From contig JASEGZ010000021.1 of NCBI GenBank assembly GCA_030018935.1, forward strand, positions 1-34,193: 34,193 nucleotides of DNA, given 5' to 3'. The stretch's first letter is position 1. Each line of letters starts with the position of its first letter. The position numbers were made by a program, and so were the translations under genes. Under the pieces are notes generated by a model. The model had not been told where the DNA came from and made no database searches. It saw only the letters and a program-made list of their open reading frames with translations. Source of the DNA: Syntrophales bacterium (GTDB taxonomy: Bacteria > Desulfobacterota > Syntrophia > Syntrophales > CG2-30-49-12). Shown here piece by piece: positions 886 to 33,889 of this stretch.

Positions 886-2067
886 ATGATCGGTATTTCA
901 AAATTGTACTGTGGAGCGGTAGAGGCCGCTGATGTCCTTCGCTACGGTAGGGAATCGGGAAAACTTCCCTCTCATCTCCTCCAGTTTTCGGCGGACAAAA
1001 AACCCGTGGTTGTTTGGAACACGACCAGACGGTGCAATCTGAAGTGCATCCATTGTTACTCCAGTTCACAGAATATTCATTATGCCGATGAATTAACAAC
1101 AGATGAGGGGAAAAAGTTAATTACCGATTTGGCTGCCTTCGGCTGCCCGGTGATCCTCTTTTCCGGTGGCGAACCCCTGATGCGGGAAGATCTTCCTGAA
1201 TTGGCCCGGTTTGCCGTGGATCAGGGGATGCGGGCCGTGATCTCCACCAACGGCACCTTGATTACTAAGGAAAAAGCGGAAGTATTCAGAGAGATCGGTC
1301 TGTCCTATGTCGGGGTCAGCCTCGATGGCGTCAAAGAGACCCATGACCGGTTCCGGGGGGTCAAGGGGGCCTTTGACACGACGATGAAGGGGATTAGTAT
1401 CTGCCGGGATGCGGGGATCAAGGTAGGCATCCGCTTTACGATGAACAAGAAAAATGCAGGAGATATTCCGGCTATTTTTGATCTCCTTGAAAAGGAAGAC
1501 ATCCCGCGGGTATGTTTCTATCATTTCGTCTATGCGGGCCGCGGATCGAAGCTGATGGAGGAAGACCTGTCCCACGAAGAAACACGGGCAGCCCTAGACC
1601 TCATCATGGACAGGACCCGTGACCTTTTTATCCGGTCAACACCACGGGAGGTCCTGACCGTGGACAACCATGCCGACGGACCTTATCTCTATCTGCGCCT
1701 CCTGAGGGAGGACCCCCGCAGAGCGGCGGAGGTCATGGAACTCTTGCTGATGAATGGGGGAAACAGTTCCGGCCACGGTATCGGTTGTGTGAGCTGGGAT
1801 GGTGAGGTCCATGCGGATCAGTTCTGGAGAGGCTTATCCTTTGGTAATGTAAGGCAGCGTCCCTTTGGCGAGATCTGGATGGATACCTCAAATGAACTGA
1901 TGGCGAAGCTGAAAGATAAAAAACATCATCTGAAGGGAAGATGCGCCACCTGCCGCTGGCTCGCAATCTGTGGGGGTAATTTTCGGGCCAGGGCAGAAGC
2001 GGCTACCGGTGATATATGGGCCCCCGATCCTGCTTGTTATCTTACCGATGATGAGATTAAAGTTTAA
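886..2067 (+). CDS. ahbC: 12,18-didecarboxysiroheme deacetylase (radical SAM)
   Basis: A 393-residue radical SAM enzyme of the alternative, siroheme-dependent heme pathway (Ahb). AhbC removes the two acetate side chains of 12,18-didecarboxysiroheme to give iron-coproporphyrin III. The opening [10 protein letters not shown], then [19 protein letters not shown], is the family's characteristic N-terminus. The radical SAM cluster motif is C50-x3-C54-x2-C57 ([10 protein letters not shown]), followed by the GGEP motif near 100 and STNGTL. A SPASM-like cysteine-rich end ([17 protein letters not shown], then [16 protein letters not shown]) should bind a second Fe-S cluster. The start is the ATG at 886 with AGGAAAA just upstream; a TTG at 871 is also in frame. 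hemB follows after 10 bases, so early and late tetrapyrrole steps are co-expressed. Confidence 0.87.
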
Positions 2068-2077
2068 GGAGGAGACG

Positions 2078-3052
2078 ATGTATTTCCCGAGTTATCGGCC
2101 AAGGCGATTGAGAAAGAATGAAAATTTCCGGAGGATGATCAGAGAAACCAATCTGTCTGTGGATGATCTGGTCTATCCCCTCTTTGTGGTCCCCGGCAGG
2201 GGAATCAAAAAGCCGATTGCTTCTATGCCCGGTCATTTCCAGATGTCCTGCGATCATATAGTCAAGGAAGTGCAGAAGACAAAAGAGATGGGTATACCGG
2301 CGGTGCTCCTTTTCGGCATTCCTGAGAAGAAGGATGAAGTAGCATCGGGCGCCTTCGCTAAAGATGGGATCGTTCAGCAGGCGATAAGGAAGATCAAGAA
2401 CGGGGTTTCCGATATCCTGGTAATTACCGATGTTTGCCTCTGTGAATACACCAGCCATGGTCATTGCGGGATGATCAAGAAGGGGGATATAGATAATGAC
2501 ACTACCCTTGAGGTCCTTGCAGAAACCGCCATCTCTCACGCCAGGGCAGGCGCTGATATGGTTGCCCCTTCGGCCATGATGGATGGCCAGGTGAGCGCTA
2601 TTCGGGAGACCCTCGATGAGGCAGGATATGAAGATCTGCCGATCATGGCCTACTCAGCCAAATACGCCTCCTGTTTTTATGGGCCTTTCCGTGAGGCCGC
2701 CGAAAGTACCCCGCAGTTTGGCGACAGAAGGTCCTATCAGATGGATGCAGCCAACAGTGATGAGGCGATCCGGGAGATGACCCTCGACGTGGAAGAGGGT
2801 GCCGATATTATTATGGTAAAGCCCGCCCTCCCGTATCTTGATATTATCCGTCGGGCGCGGGAGGAATTCGACTTACCCCTTGCCGCCTATAATGTCAGCG
2901 GGGAGTTTGCCATGATCAAAGCGGCTGCCGCTTCTGGCTGGATTGATGGGGAGAGGGCAATGATGGAGGTCCTGACCTCTATAAAAAGGGCCGGGGCGGA
3001 TATCATCATCACCTATTTTGCCCGGGATGCGGCAGGAGTACTCCAGAGGTAA
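2078..3052 (+). CDS. hemB: Porphobilinogen synthase (delta-aminolevulinic acid dehydratase)
   Basis: A 324-residue cytoplasmic enzyme that condenses two 5-aminolevulinate molecules to porphobilinogen, the first common pyrrole of heme, siroheme and corrinoids. The start at 2078 has an excellent GGAGGAG at 2068-2074, directly after the ahbC stop. The N-terminal arm ([19 protein letters not shown]) is standard. The metal site is visible as D-V-C120-L-C122-E-Y-T-S-H-G-H-C130, the three-cysteine form that binds catalytic zinc. The two Schiff-base lysines are K195 ([16 protein letters not shown]) and K248 ([10 protein letters not shown]). Length is normal. A longer reading frame extends upstream to 1970 inside ahbC but has no support as a start. 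Confidence 0.97.
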
Positions 3053-3108
3053 TTTTGACCGGCCTTCAGTTAAAGCTTCCCGCACCAACCCGCCCGCGCG
3101 GCGGCAGA

Positions 3109-3591
3109 TCAGTTTTCTTCTTCACGTAGGATATCTACAACCTCAAATTCTCTGATGCCTCCCGGTGTTTTGACCTTGATATTATCACCGATGCTCTTAC
3201 CGATCAGCGCCTTTCCTATGGGAGAGGTTACAGAAATTTTATTTTCACTAACATCAGATTCAAGGGGACCAACCAGTTGATATTTTATGTCATTTCCTGT
3301 GGCGACATCTTCAATGACAACCAATGAGCCAAAGACGACCCTGTCATTGTTGAGACCCTTTAAGTCAATGATGTTTGACAGGGCAAGATTATTTTCCATC
3401 TCCTGCACCTTGCCCTGAATGAAAGCCTGCCTTTCCTTGGCCGCCGCATATTCTGCATTTTCCGATATATCTCCGTGGGCTCTGGCTTCCTCAATATCTC
3501 TTATATTTTCAGGTATTGAAACTGTCTTCAGATATTCCAATTCTCTCTTTAATTTTTCAAACCCCGCTTTTGTAATAGGTATCTTCTCCAT
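3109..3591 (-). CDS. greA: Transcription elongation factor GreA
   Basis: A 160-residue GreA. It enters the secondary channel of RNA polymerase and stimulates cleavage of backtracked transcripts. The N-terminal coiled-coil hairpin (residues about 1-75) ends in the acidic tip motif GDISENAEY that positions Mg2+ at the polymerase active site. The C-terminal FKBP-like domain has the usual SPIGKALIGK and GD.IKVKTPGG segments. The start codon is preceded by GGAGGGGGAGAAGG. It converges with hemB (56 bases between stops) and diverges from moaA. A plausible promoter lies at 3678-3706. Confidence 0.97.
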   Translation of the reverse strand: MEKIPITKAGFEKLKRELEYLKTVSIPENIRDIEEARAHGDISENAEYAAAKERQAFIQGKVQEMENNLALSNIIDLKGLNNDRVVFGSLVVIEDVATGNDIKYQLVGPLESDVSENKISVTSPIGKALIGKSIGDNIKVKTPGGIREFEVVDILREEEN

Positions 3592-3677
3592 ACACCTTCT
3601 CCCCCTCCAATCACGGCTTCACATGACAGACTGGCAACCCTCTCGGTGCTCAATCGTAGCCATATTACCGTCCGTAA

Positions 3678-3706
3678 TTTTTAATGGAGAAATTTACCGG
3701 TGTCAA
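3678..3706 (-). promoter_or_regulatory. Putative sigma-70 promoter for greA
   Basis: On the minus strand, TTGACA (3706-3701), 17 bases, then TAAAAA (3683-3678). The -35 is perfect and the spacing ideal; the -10 matches 4 of 6. It lies about 87 bases before the greA start. A second TTGACA copy sits about 14 bases further upstream, around 3715-3720. Confidence 0.5.
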
Positions 3707-3738
3707 GGGTGATTTGTCAAGGCTGTGTTATCCCTTTC

Positions 3739-3767
3739 TTGCGAAGTTTTCTGAATTGTGTTAAAAA
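3739..3767 (+). promoter_or_regulatory. Putative promoter for moaA operon
   Basis: TTGCGA (3739-3744), a 17-base spacer, then TAAAAA (3762-3767), about 54 bases before the chosen moaA start. Both hexamers are imperfect. No molybdenum-cofactor riboswitch-like fold was evident in the spacer. Confidence 0.35.
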
Positions 3768-3820
3768 TTAAACCATTGAGTTGTTAACCATGCCGGCAAA
3801 TGGAGTGTATCACGGGGCGT

Positions 3821-4837
3821 ATGCTTGATAAATACGATAGGGATATTAATTACCTGAGGATATCGGTCACAGACAGGTGCAACCTTCGTTGCGTTTACTG
3901 TACCCCCAGGGAGGGGCGATCTCTGTTGGGACATGATGATATCCTCCGATATGAAGAAATACTAAGGGTCATCAGAGTGGCTGTGAAGATGGGGGTTGTC
4001 AAGGTCAGGGTGACCGGTGGTGAGCCCCTCGTCAGGCGTAGCATTGTAGATTTCATTGCCTCCCTGAAGACGATAAAAGGTATTGATGACATTAGCCTGA
4101 CGACGAACGGTATCCTCCTTGAGGCATTTGCAGAGAGGCTCTTTAATGCCGGTATGAAACGGATCAATATAAGTCTCGATTCTTTGAATGCCAGCAAATA
4201 CACCCGTATTACCAGAGGAGGTGATCTGGACGCAGTTCTTCGGGGTATTGATGAAGTATACAGGGTCGGTTTTTTGCCTATCAAGATCAATACTGTGGCC
4301 ATAAAAGGATTTAATGACGATGAAGTGCTGGATTTTGCAAGACTGACCCTCTATAAGCCGTATCAGATCAGGTTCATTGAGTTGATGCCGATAGGTGAGG
4401 CAGGCATGGAGAATAACGGCAGATATCTATCCAACGATATCATTAGGGAGAGAATCAACAGGCTTTACCGGCTCGAACCTGTCAATGGCAATCAGGAGCC
4501 AGAGGTCGGAGGTCAGGGATTGCCGCTCAGTGGCCCTGCACGGATGTACAGGATTACAGGTGGTGTGGGAGAGATTGGTTTCATAAGTCCGGTAAGCCGC
4601 CAGTTCTGTCTATCGTGTAACCGGCTCCGTCTCACCGCGGATGGTCATCTGCGGGCGTGTCTACTTTCAGATGAAGAGGTAGACCTGAAGGGTCCGCTGC
4701 AGGACGGATGTTCTGATGTGGAGTTAGAAGGGCTTATAAAAAGGGTAATTGCCGGAAAACCGGTACAATACAGTATGGCCTGTAATGAAAACCACATCAA
4801 AAAATGCATGCGAGAGATGTCTTCCATAGGTGGATGA
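3821..4837 (+). CDS. moaA: GTP 3',8-cyclase MoaA
   Basis: A radical SAM enzyme catalysing the first step of molybdenum cofactor synthesis, converting GTP to 3',8-cyclo-GTP. The N-terminal [4Fe-4S] motif is TDRCNLRCVYC (C-x3-C-x2-C). GGEP follows (VTGGEPLVRR), then TTNG and the ISLDS segment. The second cluster is C-x2-C-x13-C in CLSCNRLRLTADGHLRAC. The protein ends in SSIGG, the double-glycine tail required by MoaA. A small insertion of about 15 residues (NGNQEPEVGGQGLPLSG) precedes the MYRI strand. The ATG at 3821 gives the family's usual start (D-x-x-x-R-x-I-N-Y-L-R-I-S-V-T-D-R); an in-frame ATG at 3800 would add seven residues. Neither has a strong ribosome binding site. Its end overlaps the longest version of the next frame. 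Confidence 0.94.
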   Translation: MLDKYDRDINYLRISVTDRCNLRCVYCTPREGRSLLGHDDILRYEEILRVIRVAVKMGVVKVRVTGGEPLVRRSIVDFIASLKTIKGIDDISLTTNGILLEAFAERLFNAGMKRINISLDSLNASKYTRITRGGDLDAVLRGIDEVYRVGFLPIKINTVAIKGFNDDEVLDFARLTLYKPYQIRFIELMPIGEAGMENNGRYLSNDIIRERINRLYRLEPVNGNQEPEVGGQGLPLSGPARMYRITGGVGEIGFISPVSRQFCLSCNRLRLTADGHLRACLLSDEEVDLKGPLQDGCSDVELEGLIKRVIAGKPVQYSMACNENHIKKCMREMSSIGG

Positions 4838-4860
4838 GGAGCGGCGAGAGGGGGGAAGAG

Positions 4861-5628
4861 ATGATTTTTAGTGAGGAGATAGCCAGGTCTTACGATGACT
4901 GGCTTCAGACACCCATCGGGTGTTATATTGATGGGAGGGAAAAGGAACTGATCCTTGCTCTCACCGTGCCGAGGGACGGCGAGAGGCTTCTTGACGTGGG
5001 CTGCGGTACAGGTGAGCATCTGCTCCTCTTCCGGGAAAAAGGTTGTGATGTGACGGGGATCGAACCGTCACCATTTATGCTTGAAGTAGCCAAGCAAAAA
5101 CTCGGCAATCGAGCAGACTTCCATAAGGGGAAGGCCGAGGATCTCCCCTTTTCCGATAATGAATTCGATATCGTAACTTTGATTACCTCTCTCGAGTTTG
5201 CCGATGATCCCGAAAAGGCGATATCAGAGGCCATCAGGGTGTCACGGGACCGGGTCTTTCTCGGCGTCCTGAACAAATACTCTCTCCTCGGTGCCCAGCG
5301 GAGGTTAAAGTTGTTCGGCCCATCTGTGTATCACAGTGCCCGCTTTTTTCATATTGCTGAATTGACTACTATGGTGAGGAATCAGCTCCGTGGTGTCCAT
5401 ATCAAGTGGGGAAGTGTTATTTTTCTGCCCTACGGCTGCTATAAGTTTGCCAGAGTCATGGAAGAATCTATCCCGGTAATGAAAAATCCCTTCGGTGCCT
5501 TTGTCGGTCTGTCGTTTCCCGTCACCTTTATGTACAGGACGGTCCAGGATATCATCAGGAAACCCTTTAAGATAAAGGCAGAAAGTAGATATCCGGCGCG
5601 GGGAATTGTAAAGGAAATGAAGGAATGA
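4861..5628 (+). CDS. Class I SAM-dependent methyltransferase
   Basis: A 255-residue soluble methyltransferase of the Methyltransf_11 (UbiE/BioC-like) type. Motif I is LLDVGCGTGEHLL near residue 45, with the acidic ribose-binding residue in VTGIEPSPFML, motif II/III around EDLPFSDNEFDIVTLITSLEFADDPEKA, and then a long C-terminal part predicted to hold the substrate. The start at 4861 is chosen because GAGGGGGGAAGAG precedes it; an in-frame ATG at 4804 overlaps moaA. The stop overlaps the amrS start (ATGA), so the two are probably translationally coupled. The substrate cannot be told from sequence. The tight link to amrS suggests a shared pathway, but this is inference. Confidence 0.85.
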   Translation: MIFSEEIARSYDDWLQTPIGCYIDGREKELILALTVPRDGERLLDVGCGTGEHLLLFREKGCDVTGIEPSPFMLEVAKQKLGNRADFHKGKAEDLPFSDNEFDIVTLITSLEFADDPEKAISEAIRVSRDRVFLGVLNKYSLLGAQRRLKLFGPSVYHSARFFHIAELTTMVRNQLRGVHIKWGSVIFLPYGCYKFARVMEESIPVMKNPFGAFVGLSFPVTFMYRTVQDIIRKPFKIKAESRYPARGIVKEMKE

Positions 5629-6635
5629 TGCGAGAAGCTATGCTATATGAAAAGATGGATGACGGCAAGGTGAAATGCCATCTCTGCAGTCACAGGTGCA
5701 GGATCGTCCCTTCGAAGCGTGGTATATGCGGGGTGCGGGAAAACAGGGAAGGGATACTTTACACTCTGGTCTATGGGATGATCGTTGCGGAGAATGTTGA
5801 TCCCATAGAAAAGAAACCTCTTTTTCATCTCTGGCCGGGATCAAGATCATTTTCCATCGCCACGGTGGGGTGTAATTTCCGTTGTTCCTTCTGTCAGAAC
5901 CACGATATCTCGCAGATACCCCGGGAGACGGGAAACATTGCGGGACGGGAGACCTCCCCTGTAGATGTTGTGGAAAGGGCTGTGAGGACGGGATCGAGGA
6001 CTATTGCCTACACCTACACGGAGCCTACCGTTTTTTTTGAATTTGCCTATGATATTGCCCGCATTGCCCATGAAAGGGGATTAAAGAATGTCTTTGTGAC
6101 CAACGGTTTCATGACCGAAGAGACCCTGGAGGTTATTGCACCCTATCTGGATGCGGCCAATGTGGATATGAAGTCTTTCCAGGATGATTTTTATAAAAAA
6201 AGGTGCGGGGCACGTCTGACACCGGTTCTTACCAGCTTAAGGAAGATGAAGAGTCTGGGTATCTGGGTGGAGGTGACCACCCTTCTCATCCCCGGTTTAA
6301 ATGACAGCGAAGAGGAACTCCGGCAGATTGCCGAATTCATTTATTCAATCGGGGCGGAGACCCCTTGGCATATCAGTCGTTTTCATCCACAATATAAAAT
6401 GAATACATTACCTCTCACGCCTGTTGAGACGATACACCAGGCCGCGCGCATCGGCAAGGCGTGCGGACTTAAGTATGTTTATGTTGGCAATGTGCCGGGG
6501 GATGAGGGGGAGGATACGGTATGTCCCCATTGTGGGGAACTTCTCATAGACCGCTACGGCTTCTATATTGAAAAGATTCGTCTCCAGGGATCAAACTGCC
6601 CCCAATGCGGTACCGCTCTGGATGGGATATTCTAA
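5625..6635 (+). CDS. amrS: AmmeMemoRadiSam system radical SAM enzyme
   Basis: A 336-residue radical SAM protein of the AmrS (pyruvate-formate-lyase-activating-like) family, often encoded near AmmeA and Memo homologues. The N-terminal zinc-finger-like motif is CHLCSHRCRIVPSKRGICGVREN. The cluster motif is CNFRCSFCQN (C-x3-C-x2-C), preceded by the family phrase KPLFHLWPGS. TYTEPT, FVTNGF, NVDMKSF and WHISRFHP are also typical. The C-terminus carries a second zinc-ribbon-like pair (CPHCG ... CPQCG). The start overlaps the methyltransferase stop by four bases. No AmmeA or Memo gene is in this window, so partners must be elsewhere if present. The physiological substrate of the family is not firmly known. 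Confidence 0.88.
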   Translation: MMREAMLYEKMDDGKVKCHLCSHRCRIVPSKRGICGVRENREGILYTLVYGMIVAENVDPIEKKPLFHLWPGSRSFSIATVGCNFRCSFCQNHDISQIPRETGNIAGRETSPVDVVERAVRTGSRTIAYTYTEPTVFFEFAYDIARIAHERGLKNVFVTNGFMTEETLEVIAPYLDAANVDMKSFQDDFYKKRCGARLTPVLTSLRKMKSLGIWVEVTTLLIPGLNDSEEELRQIAEFIYSIGAETPWHISRFHPQYKMNTLPLTPVETIHQAARIGKACGLKYVYVGNVPGDEGEDTVCPHCGELLIDRYGFYIEKIRLQGSNCPQCGTALDGIF

Positions 6636-30796: not shown

Positions 30797-30837
30797 GTGT
30801 TATGTCTGGAACAATACACTATTATACAAGGAGGAAA

Positions 30838-32001
30838 ATGATGGCTGGCTTTGGTTTTACGGAGGAACAGGAGATGTTTCGGGAAACTGTGCAACGTTTC
30901 GCCCGGCGGGAACTTGCTCCAGGAGCAAAGGAGCGGGCAAAAAAGACGGACCGCCCGCTGGAATTGATAAAGAAAGTTGCTGACCAGGGACTGGTGGGAT
31001 TGGCCGTTCCCCAGAAATTTGGAGGTGGCGAGGCGGATTGGGTCACTGTTGGTATCGCTGTTGAAGAAATGTCGAAGGCCGATTTTGGTCTCGGCATGCT
31101 CCCGGTACTGCCCGGGCTGTTTTCCATACTTCTCACCCGCTATTGTTCAGAAGAGATGCAGCAGAGATACCTTCCCGCTATGGCTCGGGGGGAGTGTTCC
31201 GGTTGCTTTGCGATAACCGAGGCTGATTGTGGTTCGGATGTAGCTGCCATAAGGACAAAGGCTGTAAGAGATGGGGATCATTATATCATCAATGGCGAAA
31301 AAACTGGTGTCAGCGGTGGTATGGATGCACATGTCGCCGTGGCCCCGATCAAGACTAACCCTCAGGCTGGAGCTAAGGGGATTAGCATGTTCGTTCTTCC
31401 CCTTGACCTTCCCGGTGTAAGCAGGTCTCGAATTCCGGACATGGGTTTTAATCAGATAGGTCGAGGTACGTTATTCTTAGACAATGTGCGCCTACCGTTA
31501 GAGTATCGTATCGGCGAAGAAGGCAAAGGTTTTTACTTAATAATGGGGCAATTTGAAGTTTTACGGGTCTTTCTGTCAATAGCGGCTTTAGGACTTGCGC
31601 AGACTTCTCTTACAGAGGCAATTGAGTATGCAAAAATACGCAAAGCTTTTGATCGTCCGATAGTGCAGTTCGAAGGCGTTTCTTTCAAAATTGCGGAGCA
31701 TGCCACCTGGATTGAAGCGGCGAGGTTACTATGCTATCGAACCCTCTGGCTGGCTGATCAGGGCCTTGAACACAATAAAGAATCAGCGATGTGTAAATGG
31801 TTCTGCCCCGTGGTAGCTGTCAATGCCATTCATGATTCCCTGCTTATTCATGGGCATGTGGGTTACAGCGAGGAGCATCCCGTTGAGCAACGCCTGCGAG
31901 ACGCCATTGGTTTTGAGATGGCCGATGGAACGGCGAATATAATGAAGATCATCATCAGCCGGGAACTTGTAGGGAGGGAGTTCCTTCCAAGTGAGAGGTA
32001 A
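30838..32001 (+). CDS. Acyl-CoA dehydrogenase, possibly alicyclic acyl-CoA type
   Basis: A 387-residue FAD enzyme of the acyl-CoA dehydrogenase family, removing two hydrogens from an acyl-CoA and passing electrons to ETF. N-terminal helices (FTEEQEMFRETVQRFARREL), the flavin loop FAITEADCGSDVAAIRTKA, and the C-terminal domain (KIRKAFDRPIVQFEGVSFKIAEHA; IHGHVGYSEEHPVEQRLRDAIG) are clear. Where medium-chain enzymes have the catalytic glutamate in YEGT, this one reads EMADGTANIMKIIISRELVGREFLP, with D363. This ending resembles, from memory, cyclohexanecarboxyl-CoA dehydrogenases of anaerobic benzoate/alicyclic metabolism. ATG 30838 has AGGAGG just upstream. It stands alone behind a strong promoter, so the substrate cannot be told from neighbours. 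Confidence 0.85.
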   Translation: MMAGFGFTEEQEMFRETVQRFARRELAPGAKERAKKTDRPLELIKKVADQGLVGLAVPQKFGGGEADWVTVGIAVEEMSKADFGLGMLPVLPGLFSILLTRYCSEEMQQRYLPAMARGECSGCFAITEADCGSDVAAIRTKAVRDGDHYIINGEKTGVSGGMDAHVAVAPIKTNPQAGAKGISMFVLPLDLPGVSRSRIPDMGFNQIGRGTLFLDNVRLPLEYRIGEEGKGFYLIMGQFEVLRVFLSIAALGLAQTSLTEAIEYAKIRKAFDRPIVQFEGVSFKIAEHATWIEAARLLCYRTLWLADQGLEHNKESAMCKWFCPVVAVNAIHDSLLIHGHVGYSEEHPVEQRLRDAIGFEMADGTANIMKIIISRELVGREFLPSER

Positions 32002-32182: not shown

Positions 32183-32701
32183 ATGTATTCAGAGATAGTC
32201 ATGGATCATTTTAAAAATCCGAGAAATGTCGGGAGAATGGAGGATGCGGATGGGATAGGGGAAGTCGGTAATCCTATCTGTGGCGATATGATGACCATTT
32301 CCATTAAGGTTAAAGATGGTCGTATTGATGATATCAAATTTTTAACTTTTGGTTGCGCGGCGGCCATTGCCGTCTCCAGTATGCTTACAGAAATGGCCAG
32401 GGGAAAGACAATGGAGGAGGCCAAAAAGATCACCAACAAATCGGTGGCTGAGGCTCTGGAAGGTCTCCCGAAAAACAAGCTCCATTGCTCGAATCTGGGG
32501 GCAGATGCTCTTCAACTTGCCATAAAAGACTATGAGGATAGGAAGGCAGGTAAAGCCAGGCCTCCGCAAAGGAGTGAAGACAAGCATGAGCACACCGAGG
32601 GGGCTACATGCAAGTGCCCCTACTGCGATGCAGACATGGAGGCTGAGTTAGAGTTCTGTACACATTGTGGCAGTGAGATAAAAGAGACAGTAGTTCACTG
32701 A
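32183..32701 (+). CDS. IscU-type Fe-S scaffold fused to a C-terminal zinc ribbon
   Basis: A 172-residue protein. Residues 1-120 are a NifU-N/IscU scaffold beginning MYSEIVMDHFKNPRNVG. The three cluster ligands are C33 (GNPICGDMM, with the conserved D35), C58 (TFGCAAAIAVSS) and C102 (LHCSNLGADAL). After a charged linker, residues 143-162 form a small zinc ribbon: C145-x2-C148 and C159-x2-C162 (CPYC ... CTHC). Classical IscU stops at about residue 128 and has no such tail. GGAGG precedes the ATG at 32183; a longer frame to 32087 is not supported. The IscS-like gene follows after 12 bases, so the pair is an operon. Fe-S assembly is the likely role. Confidence 0.88.
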   Translation: MYSEIVMDHFKNPRNVGRMEDADGIGEVGNPICGDMMTISIKVKDGRIDDIKFLTFGCAAAIAVSSMLTEMARGKTMEEAKKITNKSVAEALEGLPKNKLHCSNLGADALQLAIKDYEDRKAGKARPPQRSEDKHEHTEGATCKCPYCDADMEAELEFCTHCGSEIKETVVH

Positions 32702-32713
32702 GGAGAATTCGTG

Positions 32714-33889
32714 ATGAAGATAGTAAACCTGGATTATATATCGGGTAACCCCATGTTGCCGGAGATTCAGGAGGCCATGATTGAGGCCATCAAGGAAAAC
32801 TATGGCAACCCTTCCAGCTCCCACAGGTTAGGTGACCAGGCAACGGAGGCGCTGGAGCTGGCCCGGGAAAAGGTAGCCAGGCTGATTAATTGCGCATTAC
32901 CTGAAGAGATAGTTTTCACTTCCTGCGGAACCGAATCCATCAACCATGCCATAAAGGGGGTAGCCTTTGCCAGGACAGACAAGGGGAAACATATAGTCAC
33001 CTCCAACATTGAACATAATGCCGTTTTAAAGAGTCTGAGAAGATTGTTAAAGATGAACTACAGGGTAACTTCAGTCTCGGTAGATGAATACGGGATGGTA
33101 AATCCTGATGACGTGGCAAGGGCGATTACAGATGAAACCATCCTGGTAACAATCATGCATAGCAACAACGAGGTCGGCACAATTCAGCCGATAAAGGAAA
33201 TAGCACGTATTACCAGGGAAAAGAAGATACCCTTTCATTGTGATGCAGTAGCCTCGGTGGGGGTTGTGCCGGTTGATGTCCAGGAGCTGGGTGTAGATTT
33301 ACTGAGTTTTTCCGCCAATCAGTTCCATGGGCCGGCAGGTGTGGGTGGCCTCTATATCCGTAAAGGCATAAACCTTTCGCCATTGCTCGATGGAGGGGGC
33401 CAGGAAAATAACAGGAGGGCAGGAACGGAGAATCTGATCGGCATTATCGGGATGGGTGTAGCTGCCGAGATTGCCCGGCGAGAGATGGAATCACGCGTGA
33501 AACATGCAAAAAAATTAAAGGAAAGATTGATAAAGGGACTGAAGGAAGATATTGATGATATTATCATCAATGGTCATCCGGAACTCTCTCTGCCCAATCT
33601 CGTTTCCGTGTCTGTAAGGTACATCGAGGGGGAAAGCATTGTCCTCATGCTGGATGAAGACAATATCGCTGTTTCCACCAGATCGGCCTGTGCTTCGGGA
33701 GCCCTGAGGGCCTCGCACGTACTCCTTTCCATTGGGAGGGAATATGCCGATGCCCAGGGTACACTCGTGATAAGCTTCGGCCGGGATAGTACGGAGGCGG
33801 AGATTAACCTCTTCCTTGAGGTATTGAAAAAGGCGGTTGTCTTCCTGAGAAATATGTCCCCACTCTATCAGAAGGTCAACTCTAAGTAA
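32714..33889 (+). CDS. IscS/NifS-like protein lacking the PLP lysine
   Basis: A 391-residue class V aminotransferase-fold protein of the IscS/NifS family. Clear family segments are FTSCGTESINHAIKG, NIEHNAVL (H101, stacks on PLP in active enzymes), HSNNEVGTIQPI, HCDAVASVG (D177) and the active-site cysteine loop STRSACASGALRASHVL (C326). However, the Schiff-base motif, normally S-x-H-K-x-x-G-P-K-G, reads SANQFHGPAG (residues 200-209): His is N202 and the lysine is Q203. The Gln usually three residues after the Asp is A180, and ATTP near the N-terminus is SGNP. A normal cysteine desulfurase reaction looks unlikely. Archaeoglobus fulgidus IscS is a published case with the lysine replaced. The start is ATG 32714 (AGGAG upstream). 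Confidence 0.9.
   Translation: MKIVNLDYISGNPMLPEIQEAMIEAIKENYGNPSSSHRLGDQATEALELAREKVARLINCALPEEIVFTSCGTESINHAIKGVAFARTDKGKHIVTSNIEHNAVLKSLRRLLKMNYRVTSVSVDEYGMVNPDDVARAITDETILVTIMHSNNEVGTIQPIKEIARITREKKIPFHCDAVASVGVVPVDVQELGVDLLSFSANQFHGPAGVGGLYIRKGINLSPLLDGGGQENNRRAGTENLIGIIGMGVAAEIARREMESRVKHAKKLKERLIKGLKEDIDDIIINGHPELSLPNLVSVSVRYIEGESIVLMLDEDNIAVSTRSACASGALRASHVLLSIGREYADAQGTLVISFGRDSTEAEINLFLEVLKKAVVFLRNMSPLYQKVNSK

Follow-up and report, generated by a model that had tools for sequence, protein, structure and literature searches.

Fe-S cluster assembly is taught as beginning with a cysteine desulfurase. A two-gene locus in a Syntrophales bacterium (assembly GCA_030018935.1) raises the question of what an IscS-like protein can do for its IscU scaffold once the PLP lysine has been replaced. 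The window, that is, the whole stretch of DNA analysed, comprises positions 1 to 34,193 of the forward strand of contig JASEGZ010000021.1 (34,193 nucleotides). The IscS-like gene lies at 32714-33889 on the plus strand. Its frame is intact, an alternative GTG start is present at 32711, and its translation of 391 amino acids contains the stretch LLSFSANQFHGPAG. A gene encoding an IscU/NifU_N scaffold of 172 amino acids is found directly upstream, at 32183-32701 on the plus strand.

Active site of the IscS-like protein

The class V aminotransferase fold is assigned by the Aminotran_5 match (PF00266, 257.8 bits). The top NCBIfam model is NifS (TIGR03402), with 457.2 bits against a cut-off of 530.75; the IscS model (TIGR02006) gives 374.8 bits against a cut-off of 643.2. 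By these scores the protein is nearest to NifS and IscS, yet it falls under the curated cut-offs of both. It has the fold and the loop cysteine of a type I cysteine desulfurase (EC 2.8.1.7) but lacks the lysine and the Arg. An AlphaFold2 model, for which the input was 42 lysine-less sequences, has a mean pLDDT of 92.4 and a pTM of 0.91, and the predicted fold is intact; the least certain internal stretch is the cysteine (C326) loop. Superposition on solved IscS/NFS1 chains gives TM scores of 0.93-0.96, including 0.95 for human NFS1 and 0.93 for E. coli IscS (1p3w).

Residues were compared in an alignment of 38 lysine-bearing and 63 lysine-less rows. The initial annotation, made from the sequence alone, had read the codons GCC AAT CAG TTC CAT at 33314-33328 as placing glutamine at the Schiff-base lysine, and translation confirms this. 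Q203 (CAG, 33320-33322, plus strand) occupies the site of E. coli K206, which is lysine in 38/38 lysine-bearing and 0/63 lysine-less rows. The preceding residue, N202 (AAT, 33317-33319, plus strand), stands for the conserved histidine (E. coli H205; His in 37/38 versus 5/63, Asn in 47/63). A180 (GCC, 33251-33253, plus strand; DAVAS for DAVQ) stands in for the glutamine in contact with the phenolate oxygen of PLP (Q183 in E. coli; 38/38 versus 1/63). These last two changes, the ISGNP found for AATTP, and the retention of H101, D177 and C326 had also been listed, and all hold in the translation and alignment. There is a further loss beyond those listed: V352 (GTG, 33767-33769, plus strand) replaces the substrate-carboxylate arginine (E. 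coli R354; 38/38 versus 0/63). Thr11, present in all lysine-bearing rows, is retained in 8% of lysine-less rows. The loop cysteine C326 (TGT, 33689-33691, plus strand; E. coli C328) is cysteine in all 62 lysine-less rows that have a letter there, and H101 and D177 (E. coli H104 and D180) are kept in every row of both sets. Across the 63 proteins, loss of the lysine thus goes with loss of the Gln, the His and the Arg for the substrate, while H101, D177 and C326 are invariant. Compared with E. coli IscS and NifS, the window protein shares the fold, the loop cysteine, the Asp180 and His104 equivalents and an operon with IscU, but the equivalents of K206, Q183, H205 and R354 are missing.

The lost positions have been studied in active enzymes. 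E. coli Q183 contacts the PLP phenolate oxygen, and the K206A and Q183E variants of E. coli IscS have no desulfurase activity (PMC9978102). The conserved Arg354 touches the substrate carboxylate, as seen in H. pylori NifS intermediates, and E. coli IscS R354K is still active (PMC9978102). Because the Schiff base has been lost along with cysteine binding, desulfurase activity is very unlikely in the lysine-less protein; the residue pattern strongly supports a loss of catalysis. Automatic annotation as 'cysteine desulfurase' would be wrong for many anaerobes. Much of the cofactor shell remains, and PLP or PMP may still bind: N151, D177, H101 and T238 are retained in all or nearly all lysine-less members (T238 in 60/63 rows).

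Distribution and ancestry of lysine-less proteins

A first genome scan gave two more lysine-less homologues, one from an actinomycetote (Leu at the lysine site) and one from a Syntrophomonadaceae genome (Gln), each beside IscU. A search of the class gave further Gln and Pro forms; a Thr form was found in a KSB1 genome and another Gln form in a sample of the phylum to which the Syntrophomonadaceae genome belongs. The census used a DNA pattern for the lysine-site motif with lysine codons excluded, and the reversed pattern served as control. On the loci already collected it matched the intended lysine-less genes and no lysine-bearing gene. The pattern is blind to codons starting with A and so misses changes from Lys to Asn, Thr (e.g. 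L088), Ile, Met and part of Ser and Arg; its counts are therefore lower bounds. Matches are present in at least 64 of 395 same-phylum genomes and 45 of 246 genera, and the reversed control gave none. The window protein is therefore no lone oddity. The most frequent motif is S-A-N-Q-F-[YNH]-G-P; S-N-P-F-Y-G-P and the Archaeoglobus fulgidus-like S-N-D-I-Y-G-P also occur.

In an 83-row tree, a branch with 99/94 support sets apart the lysine-less proteins, including A. fulgidus IscS. With the active-site columns left out, a 101-row tree still separated 63 lysine-less proteins from the rest by a single branch, with support of 93/92 and agreement from 92% of bootstrap trees; no lysine-bearing row was found inside the group. 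The lysine-site residue itself requires 12 changes on the tree and varies among subgroups (Q, P, D, S, L, T, A, H). The trees give moderate support to a single lysine-less group with A. fulgidus IscS as a member. A separate, second loss of lysine in the A. fulgidus-like subgroup is also compatible with them. The A. fulgidus sequence used agrees letter for letter with structure 4eb5, and it is the only archaeal member placed.

Lysine-less archaeal IscS proteins paired with IscU are already known from A. fulgidus (IscS) and Methanosarcina acetivorans (IscS1). In PMC7585200, A. fulgidus IscS is described as having no desulfurase activity and as supplying the [2Fe-2S] cluster of IscU with a cysteine ligand. 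This protein (4eb5, 4eb7, 4hvk; D199K mutant 4r5f) shares with the window protein the absence of a PLP lysine, the loop cysteine, the IscU partner and the side of the tree. A. fulgidus IscS has Asp at the lysine, Ala at Gln183, Asn at His205 and Leu at Arg354. The AlphaFold2 model superposes on it (4hvk) with a TM score of 0.92, an rmsd of 1.3 and 43% identity. A. fulgidus IscS differs in being archaeal, in having Asp rather than Gln at the lysine site, and in belonging to another subgroup. That Ser-Asn-Asp subgroup also has bacterial members in the source phylum. With the lysine-less group as a whole in view, A. fulgidus IscS changes from a lone archaeal curiosity to a member of a broad group. 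M. acetivorans IscS1 is paired with IscU1 and likewise has no catalytic lysine (PMC7585200); it is archaeal, and the expressed protein goes into inclusion bodies (PMC7585200). The MIS system (MisS-MisU) of archaea and some bacteria is also a two-gene unit of a desulfurase-like protein and a scaffold, with no chaperones. Compared by description only, the two differ: MIS has a working cysteine desulfurase according to PMC12192291 and PMC12442378, whereas the window protein has lost the site. The bacterial breadth of the group, the loss of the Arg, the zinc-ribbon IscU and the dsr linkage appear to be new. A literature search, mostly without subscription papers, found no mention of the bacterial breadth, the coupled Arg loss, the zinc-ribbon IscU subgroup or the dsrAB linkage, and prior mention is possible.

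Several members depart from the common form. In three lysine-less proteins (L203, L204 and L205), local alignment had suggested that C326 was lost; full alignment rules this out, showing a kept cysteine with a seven-residue insertion just past it. These three also keep the His before the lysine site (SHL, AHQ and SHQ). The loop is seemingly absent from L195, which may be a draft-genome error. Two lysine-less proteins (L187 and L188) have no IscU nearby, carry the loop SACMSITAKAS and are flanked by genes for proteins of 849-938 and 518-528 residues; they possibly have another role.

The IscU partner and its genomic setting

The IscU of the window is recognised by TIGR03419 (188.9 bits, cut-off 187.9) and PF01592 (167.4 bits). 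It keeps the cluster residues C33, D35, C58, H101 and C102, and it has a C-terminal zinc ribbon (CKCPYC...CTHC; 32609-32674, plus strand) that gives weak zinc-ribbon matches. IscU adjoins the lysine-less gene on the same strand at 57/62 loci, being upstream in 29 and downstream in 28; for lysine-bearing homologues the figure is 25/48. It had been proposed that the N-Q form might mark a clade always next to a zinc-ribbon IscU. The ribbon is universal in the IscU-first loci, which are of the window's type and have a CxxC...CxxC tail in 29/29. It fails as a mark of the whole lysine-less group, in which it is not universal. Genes for DsrE, TusA and rubrerythrin appear repeatedly next to IscS-first members; beside the genes of the IscU-first subgroup no DsrE or TusA gene was found, and there is a single rubrerythrin gene near L181.

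In four bacterial members of the Ser-Asn-Asp subgroup (L155, L156, L164 and L186), IscU is fused to a C-terminal domain of about 130 residues of pyridine-nucleotide type. In L156 this domain has a Pyr_redox match of 27.9 bits, a hint that the scaffold carries a redox domain. An acyl-CoA dehydrogenase gene lies upstream of iscU in the window (30802-32001, plus strand) and likewise in L004, a locus of the same genus; the top models for the window protein are cyclohexanecarboxyl-CoA dehydrogenases, and it scores below their cut-offs.

The source genome is a 90-contig draft of 2.07 Mb, 96% complete. It has one IscU match; a same-genus relative (G001) has a second, weaker one. No SufB/D was found in the source genome, while all 14 control genomes gave a match. 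Neither the source genome nor four others (G527, G809, G532 and G681) gave a SufB/D match, and in all five each detected IscU lies next to a lysine-less IscS. Absence of SufB/D is not specific to carriers, since it is also seen in 17/35 non-carrier genomes, compared with 29/45 carriers (p = 0.18); SufB/D loss as a specific mark of carriers is thus unsupported. The 35 non-carriers were hand-chosen from the census list for high completeness and varied families.

The initial annotation regarded the protein as suiting a sulfide-rich anaerobe, and the genomes agree with this. The source genome has dsrA, and in three relatives (L158, L193 and L196) the gene order is iscU, lysine-less iscS, dsrA. In L158 and L193 a complete dsrB follows dsrA, and then genes for a cobB-type amidase and a membrane protein; L196 ends at the contig end. 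The matches in L158 are well above their cut-offs (dsrA 579.5 bits against 392.85, dsrB 525.3 against 341.5). The membrane protein after dsrB in L158 has no NCBIfam match, and it may be DsrM-like. Among the 45 carrier genomes, 38 have dsrA, compared with 13 of the 35 others (Fisher p = 1.8e-5, a value that ignores shared ancestry and treats close, non-independent genomes as separate). Carriers are mostly sulfide-making anaerobes, in which clusters may be built from sulfide directly.

Possible roles and sulfur sources

We consider it probable that the window protein descends from a type I cysteine desulfurase and is now an obligate, non-desulfurase partner of IscU; it would present C326, and sulfur would arrive as sulfide or persulfide. 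An ancestral type I cysteine desulfurase would have lost its chemistry while keeping the IscS fold and the mobile C326 loop. The lysine-less protein would bind the adjacent IscU and put C326 at the cluster site, where it could ligate the cluster, as in A. fulgidus, or carry a persulfide for a short time. The sulfur would be sulfide made with DsrAB by a sulfite-reducing anaerobe, or a carrier persulfide, and not L-cysteine processed on the lysine-less protein. IscU binding, cluster ligation and sulfide supply are all inferred. Sulfide use by scaffolds has precedents: an E. coli iscS deletion is rescued by H2S provided that IscU is present (PMC13015791), and sulfide is usable by the archaeal SMS system (PMC12192291). 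Against the partner reading, the source genome has two lysine-bearing paralogues on other contigs (L002 and L003), neither of which adjoins IscU, that could supply cysteine-derived sulfur in trans. By their translations, L002 is near a cysteine-synthase-like and a thiazole-synthase-like gene and L003 is near a MOSC-like gene; these neighbours suggest other sulfur pathways for both. The initial annotation had proposed a PLP-independent IscU partner like A. fulgidus IscS. The partner role is favoured by conservation, purifying selection, the shared group and the adjacency of IscU (57/62); independence from PLP is less secure, as the protein retains most of the phosphate cup together with D177, H101 and T238.

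A broader claim is more tentative, and we put it at somewhat below even. In a large bacterial group, IscS may have become a fixed platform for a cysteine ligand, serving a main or only Fe-S scaffold that is fed by sulfide from dissimilatory sulfite reduction, in some genomes with dsrAB in the same operon; a desulfurase step would be absent. A widespread IscU partner which does not bind cysteine and is tied to sulfite reduction makes direct sulfide use testable in bacteria. The group also allows scaffold binding by IscS to be viewed apart from its chemistry.

Persulfide exchange between E. coli IscS and TusA is known, and it provides a precedent for the strongest alternative, which is a good deal less likely than the partner reading. 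Here C326 would take sulfane sulfur from TusA, DsrE or a lysine-bearing desulfurase and hand it to IscU, making the protein a sulfurtransferase rather than a passive ligand. The invariance of C326 and its loop fits such a relay, as do the DsrE/TusA genes beside IscS-first members (L006, L014, L201, L207, L208, L210, L211 and others). However, no DsrE/TusA gene was found adjoining the genes of the window's IscU-first subgroup, and a relay does not obviously need a whole IscS fold.

Weak or altered PLP/PMP chemistry, with another substrate, a non-covalent cofactor and His101 as base, is improbable. It would account for the retained D177, H101, T238 and N151, and the K206A variant of E. coli IscS keeps part of its PLP and carries out slow partial steps (PMC9978102). 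The losses extend to the substrate Arg (63/63) and Gln183 (62/63) as well as the lysine (63/63), and the drift of the lysine site through eight residues speaks against a new catalytic side chain.

Pseudoenzymes frequently turn into regulators, and the genome has two active-type paralogues; the protein could have a regulatory role, either blocking IscU or forming heterodimers with these paralogues, or it could be a non-functional leftover. We regard this as very unlikely. Against the same-genus homologue from Syntrophaceae bacterium CG2_30_49_12 (L004/L053; 90% identical), dN/dS of the IscS-like gene is 0.048/0.457 (NG86) or 0.049/0.375 (YN00), a ratio of about 0.1, which indicates purifying selection; the value for IscU against L004 is 0.059/0.733. 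The protein is also tightly conserved with IscU in many families, and the five genomes that gave no SufB/D match and pair every detected IscU with a lysine-less IscS argue against this reading. The view that this is not simple decay is borne out by the intact frame, the conservation across relatives and this selection.

There is a negligible chance that the lysine codon was misread in sequencing, assembly or annotation, a doubt that a 90-contig draft might raise: the independent CG2_30_49_12 genome carries the identical change (SANQFNGP, with no lysine), so Q203 is no sequencing accident, related genomes carry S-A-N-Q-F-[YN]-G-P, dozens more share the change, and coupled changes are found elsewhere in the pocket. 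With the dN/dS values, these genomes rule out both error and decay.

Elsewhere in the window, the plus-strand stretch 1970-6635 encodes a delta-aminolevulinic acid dehydratase and two radical SAM proteins, one of which has a molybdenum-cofactor-synthesis C domain.
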